Below, one piece after another: positions 9,814 to 11,960 of a stretch of DNA of 39,567 bases. The notes beneath the pieces are model-generated. The model saw only the letters and a list, made by a program, of their open reading frames with translations. It did no database searches and was not told where the DNA came from. Position 1 is the first letter of the stretch, and each line of letters starts with the position of its first letter. Origin of the DNA: Gammaproteobacteria bacterium. GTDB taxonomy: Bacteria > Pseudomonadota > Gammaproteobacteria > Arenicellales > Arenicellaceae. The stretch covers positions 1 to 39,567 of the forward strand of contig JAFMHC010000018.1 of assembly GCA_017854775.1 (NCBI GenBank). Direction: 5' to 3'. Made by a program: the position numbers and the translations under genes.

Positions 9814-9964
9814 GGGATAGCCGGAGTAGGTTTTATTAGTTCGCCCAGCCATTACTGATTTTAGTGAATACCATTATCTGAGGCAGACATTTGCGATAAA
9901 ATTAGTGTCCTACGAGCTGGAGAGCTAAATCACCAGTTCGGTCTATTCACGCACATTTTTGTTC

Positions 9965-10013
9965 CTAAGTTTTTGCCACTAAGTTTTTAACTAAGTTTTT
10001 TTACTAAGTAAGT
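9965..10013 (+). repeat. CTAAGTTTTT short degenerate repeats
   Basis: CTAAGTTTTT occurs at 9965-9974, 9979-9988 and 9991-10000, with a fourth partial copy CTAAGTAAGT at 10004-10013, immediately upstream of the ECF41-type promoter. Spacing is irregular (14, 12 and 13 bp). It is an AT-rich, possibly bent, stretch in a position where upstream elements act; it may also be simple low-complexity drift. Confidence 0.4.
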
Positions 10014-10037
10014 CACAAATCCAAGCGCTATTTCGTC
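10011..10037 (+). promoter_or_regulatory. Predicted ECF41-dependent promoter
   Basis: AGTCACA (10011-10017), exactly 16 nt, then CGTC (10034-10037). The known ECF41 target motif is TGTCACA-N16-CGTC, so only the first base differs. The -10 element lies 32 bp upstream of the first gene of an operon whose third gene encodes an ECF41-type sigma factor. This is the arrangement expected for autoregulation. Confidence 0.75.
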
Positions 10038-10069
10038 ATAGAGGTACACAAACTACTTGCTTATTTCCG

Positions 10070-10450
10070 ATGAAGAAACTACTTATTTGCTTAGGACTAT
10101 ATTACATACTGCTTGGATTCTACCTTTTATTCGCACCTATGCATTTTTATGAGATGACACCAGGTGTCTCAATGATGGGGCCATACAACAAGCACTTTGT
10201 CTTAGATGTATCATTCGCCTTTCTTGCCAGTGGCATCGCGGTTCAATTGGGGGCAATTCAGTCCAATAAATTGGCCTCAATGATGGGCGCTTTATGGCCA
10301 CTGATGCACGCATTATTTCATATAACGATTTGGATTAGGCGCGACTTCATTATTGACCGTGTCAGCGTGTCAGATTTTCTAGCCGTTATTATTCCCGGCT
10401 TACTTGTAATGTTATTGGCTATTAGATTCAATGAGGTGCGCAATGTTTAA
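10070..10450 (+). CDS. Small integral membrane protein of the ECF41 operon
   Basis: A 126-residue very hydrophobic protein with about four membrane segments: roughly 5-24, 45-63, 68-90 and 103-121. Short loops contain FAPMHFYEMTPGV and WIRRDFIIDRVSVSDF. No signal peptide apart from the first segment, no cysteine pair and no catalytic motif is visible, and the family is not recognised beyond general similarity to small DoxX-like or DUF4345-like membrane proteins. First gene downstream of the predicted ECF41 promoter; its end overlaps the next gene by 8 bp, so it is translationally linked to the CGPC protein. In other ECF41 loci the target gene is often a soluble redox enzyme or a DoxX-type protein, and this gene fills that position. 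Confidence 0.75.
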   Translation: MKKLLICLGLYYILLGFYLLFAPMHFYEMTPGVSMMGPYNKHFVLDVSFAFLASGIAVQLGAIQSNKLASMMGALWPLMHALFHITIWIRRDFIIDRVSVSDFLAVIIPGLLVMLLAIRFNEVRNV

Positions 10451-10982
10451 ATTAATGCTGAGCAAAATGATCAATAAATTTGAGTCTCATTATGACTATG
10501 ACGCAAGCTATATGCATGACATCAATTCCATTTCAGCCAGTGCAACGACTCGGTTAATGATGTTGTCGGGCATGACAAATTATAGCGGTAGTAACAAAAC
10601 GATCTGGGGCGGTGCTGCGTTAGCCGCTACCTTGCATGGGGATTGCGGCCCGTGTGCGCAATTAGTAATTGATCGATTGATAGAACAAGGCTTAGATGCA
10701 AAGCAACTTATAGCCTGTATTAATAAAGACTGGCTGACTGCCGCTGATACTGGGCTAGGTTATCGCTTCGCCCAAGCAACCCTATGCAACTTAGAAAACC
10801 TAGAACCGCTGCGCGGCGAAATACTCAAAAAGCATGGTGATAAAGCGCTAATAGCCGCAAGTTTCGCGACTGTCAGCTACCCAGTGTATCCTTTACTAAA
10901 ACGCGCTTTGGGGTCTGCCAAAGCCTGCCAAAAGCTGGTTATTGGTGAATATCAAGCGGTGCATGAACCGCAGCAGGTCTAA
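10443..10982 (+). CDS. Carboxymuconolactone-decarboxylase/AhpD-like protein with CGPC motif
   Basis: An all-helical protein of 179 residues when started at ATG 10443, which has GAGGTG 5 nt upstream; a longer in-frame start at 10431 is less likely. The diagnostic part is H65-G-D-C68-G-P-C71 in a helix, as in AhpD/carboxymuconolactone-decarboxylase-fold peroxidase-type proteins with a redox CxxC. The second half (helices about 75-175) is helical but diverges from standard CMD domains. Proteins of this fold are the classic neighbours and regulatory targets of ECF41 sigma factors. It overlaps the upstream membrane-protein gene by 8 bp, and its stop codon overlaps the sigma-factor start (TAATG). 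A role in thiol or peroxide chemistry is inferred from fold and context only. Confidence 0.8.
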   Translation: MFKLMLSKMINKFESHYDYDASYMHDINSISASATTRLMMLSGMTNYSGSNKTIWGGAALAATLHGDCGPCAQLVIDRLIEQGLDAKQLIACINKDWLTAADTGLGYRFAQATLCNLENLEPLRGEILKKHGDKALIAASFATVSYPVYPLLKRALGSAKACQKLVIGEYQAVHEPQQV

Positions 10983-11845
10983 TGCCTAATTATACTGAAT
11001 ACTTTGAGTTGGAGAGGCCAGCCTTAATGTCGATCGCTTATCAAATGTTGGGCGAACGTGCGGCTGCGCAAGACTTAGTTCAAGATGCCTGGGAGATTTG
11101 GAATAAGGCAGATAAGGCTACCATCGACTCGCCGCCAGCATGGTTGCGAACGGTAACCAATCGATTAGCCATAGACGCTTTGCGATCGGCTAGGAAAAAG
11201 CGCGAAGTATACGTCGGGCCGTGGCTGCCAGAACCGTTGATTGAAGACGTTCAAGGTGGGCCAGATGCCGCTTTGGCATTAGCAAAAGACTGTGAATTAG
11301 CATTAATGTGGGCTATGGAACGCTTAACCATCGAGGAGCGCAGTGCTTTTATTTTACGTAAAGTGTTCGACAGCGACTATGCTGAGTTGTCAGAAGTCTT
11401 AGGCAAAACTGAAGCGAACTGTCGTAAAATCGTTAGTCGGGCCTCGCAGAAAATCGCTTCGACTAAATTGAAGTTTAACGTCACACAGAGCGAAACGTAC
11501 GCGTTGCTAAGTAAATTTACTCAAGCTTGTGCTGCCAAGAATCATGACCAAGTATTATCCTTGCTGGCGCCAGATGTCGTGTCTATTTCTGACGGTGGGG
11601 GCCACGTCCGCGCAGCACTACGACCCTTGTTTGGTGCTCTTGAGGTAAGCGGTGTGTTGCTTTCGATACTACGCAAGTACTCAAGCAATAGCACGACACA
11701 TAGAACCAATGTCAATGGACAACCTGCACTAATTATATCTGCAAATAATCAGCTCAATACTGTATTAACCATCGGCGTCAATGATGCAGGTCTTATCGCT
11801 TGGATCTATATGATGCGGAATCCTTACAAGCTCAGGCTTTGTTAA
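10982..11845 (+). CDS. ECF41-group RNA polymerase sigma factor with SnoaL-like C-terminal domain
   Basis: A 287-residue extracytoplasmic-function sigma factor. Region 2 is about 8-75 (DLVQDAWEIW), region 4 about 100-160 (LTIEERSAFILRKVFD, then the recognition helix LSEVLGKTEANCRKIVSRA). The extra C-terminal SnoaL-like domain (about 170-287) identifies the ECF41 group, together with its three signatures: W81-L-P-E-P in the linker, D204-G-G-G in the domain and N280-P-Y-K-L near the end. The last is NPDKL in most members, so the D-to-Y change is a real deviation. In ECF41 proteins the fused C-terminal domain controls activity in place of an anti-sigma factor, consistent with no anti-sigma gene here. 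The start overlaps the preceding stop by one base. Confidence 0.95.
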   Translation: MPNYTEYFELERPALMSIAYQMLGERAAAQDLVQDAWEIWNKADKATIDSPPAWLRTVTNRLAIDALRSARKKREVYVGPWLPEPLIEDVQGGPDAALALAKDCELALMWAMERLTIEERSAFILRKVFDSDYAELSEVLGKTEANCRKIVSRASQKIASTKLKFNVTQSETYALLSKFTQACAAKNHDQVLSLLAPDVVSISDGGGHVRAALRPLFGALEVSGVLLSILRKYSSNSTTHRTNVNGQPALIISANNQLNTVLTIGVNDAGLIAWIYMMRNPYKLRLC

Positions 11846-11934: not shown

Positions 11935-11960
11935 GTGTGTATTGATTAATCAATACACAC
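11935..11960. repeat. 26-bp perfect palindrome between converging genes
   Basis: Arms GTGTGTATTGATT (11935-11947) and AATCAATACACAC (11948-11960) are perfectly complementary with no spacer. A second small hairpin, ACTTCG/CGAAGT (11961-11966 and 11979-11984), follows directly. The element lies about 90 bp after the sigma-factor stop and before the gspD stop on the opposite strand. It lacks a T tract, so it is not a standard terminator; it could be a transcript-end hairpin for both genes or a protein-binding palindrome. Confidence 0.75.

Follow-up and report, generated by a model that had tools for sequence, protein, structure and literature searches.

A predicted autoregulated ECF41 operon in Arenicella and its recurrent membrane–CGPC protein pair

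Layout of the locus

The stretch of DNA analyzed here, referred to throughout as the window, comprises 39,567 nucleotides from a marine gammaproteobacterium of the genus Arenicella (G000). Within it, a predicted promoter is followed on the same strand by three overlapping genes, the gene boundaries being those of the list of open reading frames.

10011–10017, + strand: −35 element AGTCACA of the predicted ECF41 promoter (consensus TGTCACA; PMC3426412)
10018–10033, + strand: spacer of 16 bases, read from the sequence
10034–10037, + strand: −10 element CGTC of the predicted ECF41 promoter, assigned from sequence and conservation
10070–10450, + strand: gene 1, four-helix membrane protein, 126 aa
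10443–10982, + strand: gene 2, CGPC protein, divergent CMD/AhpD-like, 179 aa
10982–11845, + strand: gene 3, ECF41 (SigJ-type) σ-factor with a C-terminal extension, 287 aa

The −10 CGTC and the start of gene 1 are separated by 32 bases, and transcription would be expected to begin at about 10043–10045. The start adopted for gene 2 is the ATG that gives an 8-nt overlap with gene 1, an alternative upstream ATG at 10431 leading to a protein of 183 aa, and genes 2 and 3 overlap by 1 nt (TAATG). The initial annotation had described a membrane protein/CGPC CMD-like/ECF41 operon with overlapping genes, and this arrangement is confirmed.

Two further features flank the operon. Directly 5′ of the −35 element, an AT-rich segment (9964–10010) contains four spaced copies of CTAAGT, three of them followed by T-runs; an alignment of upstream DNA from the Arenicella relatives shows no such copies, and they are possibly UP-element-like or a simple repeat. 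Downstream, a perfect 26-bp palindrome without a loop (GTGTGTATTGATT/AATCAATACACAC, 11935–11960) sits between the σ-factor gene and a converging secretin-like gene; it lacks a T-run directly after it and is a possible bidirectional terminator or binding site.

The σ-factor and its C-terminal tail

The product of gene 3 contains the regions 2 and 4 of an ECF-type σ-factor (Sigma70_r2, E = 6e-13; Sigma70_r4_2, E = 5e-10; both above cut-off) and passes the NCBIfam SigJ model NF007214 (287.5 bits, cut-off 271). It falls below the curated cut-off of TIGR02957 (SigX4; 290 vs 323.25 bits) and is not filed under that family. The closest solved structure is that of Mycobacterium tuberculosis SigJ (PDB 5xe7; E = 1.5e-42 over query residues 7–235), a protein from another phylum and likened here by the protein alone. 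Regions 2 and 4 extend to about residue 158, and a C-terminal extension of about 100 aa carries DGGG and an NPxKL motif in which x is Y. As the initial annotation had read it, this is an ECF41 factor with WLPEP, DGGG, and NPYKL, found here as VGPWLPEP in the linker between regions 2 and 4, SDGGG, and MRNPYKLRLC. It is also the sole ECF41 factor of the genome, the next match being an ordinary ECF factor (E = 3e-5). The WLPEP hallmark is itself variable, since two Arenicella species (L009 and L010) have WLAEP instead, as do three ECF41 factors from gammaproteobacteria (L046, L050, and L051).

ECF41 factors possess a regulatory domain of their own, and the Ecf41 protein of Bacillus licheniformis is ~20-fold more active when the tail beyond about residue 204 is removed (PMC3426412). 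At the present locus, neither the open reading frames nor the domain scan revealed an adjacent recognizable anti-σ gene. The direction in which the tail would act here is taken by analogy from the characterized ECF41 proteins.

Position x of the NPxKL-like tail was compared across 62 ECF41 proteins, in which it is D in 46, E in 11, N in one, and Y in two, the remaining two tails being unreadable by the pattern. The change from D to Y in the regulatory tail, to which the initial annotation had drawn attention, is therefore real and recent, and it is confined to one clade: Y occurs only in the window and in its closest relative (L008), two sister species whose σ-factors are 81% identical. The change might have unlocked or broken the regulatory tail, leaving the σ-factor of this species constitutive or inert. 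The scarcity of exceptions to D or E, which fill this position in 57 of the 60 readable tails, and the strong effect of tail removal in B. licheniformis speak for such an outcome; however, the Y is kept in two species with the rest of the motif set intact, which points to a tolerated change, and a single event in one clade provides no statistical support for an effect. We thus regard a broken or unlocked tail as unlikely and favor a σ-factor that is still restrained by its fused domain. The A at the start of the −35 element and the Y in place of D/E nevertheless mean that promoter strength or control could differ in this species. The idea that the first −35 base co-varies with the recognition helix of region 4 was considered and rejected as evidence: no consistent residue accompanies promoters beginning with A, C, or G, and the case comes down to one clade, the window and L008, in which the helix reads ANCRK; in the others, A/S or a different residue precedes the Cys.

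Recurrence and properties of the membrane–CGPC pair

The three genes and their promoter recur at 28 other places in the Proteobacteria. Sampling by σ-factor similarity covered 398 genomes of the phylum; of the 29 top-scoring loci, nine are membrane–CGPC–ECF41 operons with the promoter box just before the membrane gene. This proportion does not represent ECF41 factors at large, because the loci were picked for their closeness to the query. A second sample, drawn with the membrane protein from 337 genomes of the class to which G528 belongs and which is not that of the window, gave 23 loci, and 13 of them have the three genes in the same order and on the same strand. Their boxes are strict in ten cases, TGTCACA-N16-CGTA in two, and TGTCATA-N16-CGTC in one. 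Five plasmid loci of Rhizobium/Sinorhizobium, added to the orthologous Arenicella operons and both samples, bring the set to 29 distinct operons. These plasmid loci, annotated hypothetical–hypothetical–sigJ (L036 and L038–L041), resemble the window in the trio, its order, its orientation, and its promoter, and in L036, L038, and L041 gene 1 also overlaps gene 2 by the same 8 nt; the plasmid loci differ in a TGTCACA −35 element, in a spacer of 15 bases in four of the five, and in the sequence of genes 1 and 2 (~25–31% identity). Two of the Rhizobium plasmid operons contain apparent frameshifts, one in the membrane gene (L039 2632–3000, R. acidisoli) and one at the 3′ end of the CGPC gene (L041 3001–3492, C104), which suggests decay or sequencing error. 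The trio may already have been drawn in earlier literature: Wecke et al. (PMC3426412) show “hypothetical proteins” with the promoter, in white in their Figure 2, the family being undescribed in their text.

The four-helix nature of the membrane protein, proposed in the initial annotation, is supported by an AlphaFold2 model with helices at residues 2–21, 41–63, 67–91, and 100–125 (mean pLDDT 78). A Foldseek search of the PDB with this model gave no match at E ≤ 0.001, and sequence profiles of genes 1 and 2 found no match in the PDB. Eighteen diverse homologs share P31, G37, N40, H42, F43, D46, H80, A81, and H84, of which the polar residues N40, H42, D46, H80, and H84 lie in or near helices. 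A search of the contigs with the single sequence found no relatives, and one with an alignment found three loci. The protein does not match the DoxX_2 profile (PF13564), to which a relative, in L055, scores 20.5 bits against a cut-off of 26.3, so that similarity to DoxX_2/DUF4345 is sub-threshold and seen in relatives only. As no match to carboxymuconolactone decarboxylases, oxidoreductases, or epimerases was found, it lies outside the standard list of ECF41 targets. The initial annotation had called it a nonstandard target, and this stands with respect to the usual enzymes; it does not stand in the sense of something unique, because the protein is a recurrent partner in 29 operons.

An AhpD-type catalytic site has a CxxC motif and a His at +4 from the second Cys. 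In a 14-row alignment of the CGPC protein, a His never occurs at +4 after C68-G-P-C71, whereas a classical CMD protein encoded beside an ECF41 locus (P0001) reads CAHCIDMH, with the His present. The window protein is unmatched by the CMD profile (PF02627), and its relatives, searched one by one, reach at best 21.3 bits against a cut-off of 23. C68, C71, and C162 are invariant, as are Y19, D20, Y23, P150, K153, and G157. Judged by its sequence, the protein is related to the usual CMD targets but has diverged from them, and it is best called CMD-like. Taken together, the two window proteins are reminiscent of DoxX-like/DUF4345 and CMD/AhpD proteins in their four helices, their CxxC motif, and the weak profile similarity of their relatives, but they remain below either Pfam cut-off.

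In the gammaproteobacterium G190 the membrane and CGPC domains are fused in one 319-aa open reading frame (L017 949–1908, − strand), and no ECF41 factor was found in that genome, which points to a joint function of the two proteins that is independent of the σ-factor. The CxxC motif, the third Cys, the His/Asp set, and this fusion make a redox role of the pair a possibility that we advance tentatively. With a CGPC model that is unusable (pLDDT 36) and a membrane model that has no solved relative, the proposal is built on motifs and context. A more detailed version, which we consider doubtful, is that the pair forms a two-part membrane thiol-redox (or peroxide- or electrophile-detoxifying) enzyme, an ECF41-switched cassette of Alphaproteobacteria and a few Arenicella, in which the invariant His and Asp residues of the four-helix protein would hold a heme, metal, or quinone cofactor that the CxxC partner reduces or oxidizes and the product or substrate would be sensed by the fused domain of the σ-factor. 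A lone, diverged CGSC protein occurs in Arenicella G003 (L025 1501–2025), its membrane partner being absent; no ECF41 factor was found in that genome.

Anti-σ genes are often cotranscribed with, and located just upstream of, ECF σ-factor genes. The membrane gene is cotranscribed in this manner in the predicted operon, and membrane–σ-factor pairs with no CGPC gene between them occur in Sphingobium, Novosphingobium, and Methylobacterium, so the membrane protein could be suspected of being an anti-σ factor. However, its modeled transmembrane helix begins at residue 2, leaving no apparent cytoplasmic domain able to wrap a σ-factor; the Arenicella locus L011 lacks the membrane gene and keeps CGPC–ECF41 and the promoter; and the membrane gene is found with no neighboring ECF41 gene in Bosea, Skermanella, Sphingopyxis, and Tardiphaga. 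Moreover, the fusion partner in G190, where no ECF41 factor was found, is the CGPC protein and not the σ-factor, and ECF41 factors bring their own regulatory domain (PMC3426412). An anti-σ role is thus very unlikely, and we prefer to regard the membrane protein as a target of the σ-factor and a partner of the CGPC protein. Upstream of lone membrane genes in the sample from the class of G528, a NGTCACN-N16-CGTC box lies 122–147 bases away in five loci, and all five genomes hold an ECF41 gene elsewhere, a weaker kind of evidence.

The operon is distributed patchily, being present in four of 17 other Arenicella genomes and in none of the 82 genomes taken from elsewhere in the family and order, and its neighbors differ in each Arenicella genome. 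A tree of ECF41 factors groups the Arenicella sequences, with full support, with L043–L045, which belong to another class, probably the Alphaproteobacteria, and not with the gammaproteobacterial ECF41 factors. The operon was likely acquired horizontally, the membrane gene having been either lost once (L011) or gained later.

Promoter conservation, regulon, and proposed mechanism

The published ECF41 consensus promoter is TGTCACA-n16-CGTC (PMC3426412), and AGTCACA-N16-CGTC at 10011–10037 departs from it only in the first base, A for T, as the initial annotation had stated. GTCACA-N15–17-CGTC occurs once on the two strands of the window against a shuffle expectation of 0.07 (seven of 100 shuffles contained one), so the match by itself would be suggestive; what makes the promoter secure is its position and its conservation at five of five Arenicella loci and before 29 of 29 distinct three-gene operons. 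By chance, the strict motif would fall within 150 bp in about 4e-4 of cases per locus. The initial annotation had tied its reading to conservation of the motif upstream of orthologous operons. The σ-factor gene is present in four of 17 same-genus genomes, and all four keep the box ahead of the first gene, with −35 elements AGTCACA, TGTCACA (twice), and GGTCACA. Among the four Arenicella three-gene loci, pairwise identity is 70–96% in the box compared with 28–38% in the 60 bases upstream.

In the wider set the box precedes gene 1 in every one of the 29 operons (26 strict, three with one change), with spacers of 16 bases in 25 and 15 bases in four. Positions 2–5 of the −35 element (GTCA) and CGT of the −10 element are invariant, and the first −35 base is T in 23, A in two, C in two, and G in two; the A for T of the window therefore occupies the one freely varying position. 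The aligned promoters sharpen the ECF41 recognition rule to N-GTCACA-N15/16-CGTC, with a free first base. In the >COE>ECF> loci surveyed by Wecke et al. (PMC3426412), the ECF41 promoter precedes the first gene in 97 of 107. It is extremely improbable that the motif arose by coincidence and that transcription of the operon starts from a different promoter. Bare matches are no commoner in the genome than those of the reversed control (five vs six), and seven of 100 shuffles of the window hold a GTCACA...CGTC match, but place, spacing, and sequence are kept before all 29 operons while the flanking DNA has diverged within the genus.

A genome scan with this motif, suggested in the initial annotation as a means of defining the regulon, gave little beyond the operon itself. 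Of the five bare TGTCACA-N15–17-CGTC matches, four are located within coding sequence, and the remaining one (L001, N17) overlaps an open reading frame at its 5′ edge; the stricter GTCACA-N15–17-TCGTCA has two sites, the window promoter and one inside a coding sequence. A larger regulon was rejected, the bare matches not exceeding the reversed control and the second strict site being in a coding sequence. Since the genome encodes a single ECF41 factor and offers no other credible site, the σ-factor probably controls nothing but this operon, although weaker targets could be missed with the two patterns tried. This agrees with the single-operon regulons of B. licheniformis, Rhodobacter sphaeroides, and Sinorhizobium meliloti (PMC3426412, PMC6180224); in the last, RpoE9 acts on a single target, the CMD gene upstream of its own, whose mapped transcription start follows TGTCACA...CGTC (PMC6180224).

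The recurrence of the trio and its promoter elsewhere marks the window as a self-activating unit of known kind. The autoregulation predicted in the initial annotation gains support from the promoter conserved before every equivalent operon, and we infer from these sequence comparisons that the window very probably holds a three-gene, positively autoregulated ECF41 operon. In the mechanism that we propose, the fused C-terminal domain would restrain the σ-factor, making a separate anti-σ factor unnecessary, until a signal, probably a small molecule or redox change, releases it. The freed σ-factor would then guide RNA polymerase to AGTCACA-N16-CGTC and raise expression of genes 1 and 2 as well as of its own gene. 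The products of genes 1 and 2 would probably cooperate at the membrane, and they most likely form a thiol/redox or detoxification pair: the thiols would come from the CxxC protein, and the membrane protein, through its invariant His/Asp/Asn residues, would anchor the CxxC protein or exchange electrons or substrate with it.

The operon shares with the COE–ECF41 operons of B. licheniformis (ydfG/ecf41), R. sphaeroides (RSP_0606/ecf41), and S. meliloti (SMb20029/rpoE9) a fused C-terminal domain, a TGTCACA-N16-CGTC-type promoter ahead of a CxxC (CMD) gene that is linked to the σ-factor gene, and an apparently single target. It differs from them in that a membrane gene comes first, the CxxC protein lacks a Pfam CMD match and the usual His, the first promoter base is A rather than T, and the tail reads NPYKL. 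As a well-formed single-operon ECF41 unit, the window itself is ordinary, and its lasting interest lies in the recurrent unnamed membrane–CxxC pair: ECF41 factors are a widespread σ-factor group, and the recurrence of the pair, its fusion, and its invariant residues provide a biochemical handle on their signal. A related arrangement is seen in Novosphingobium resinovorum (L032 1538–4252), where back-to-back ECF41-type boxes (TGTCACG...CTCGTC at 2066, − strand; TGTCACA...CTCGTC at 2105, + strand) separate a classical CMD gene from an operon encoding an NAD(P)H-binding protein, the membrane protein, and ECF41.
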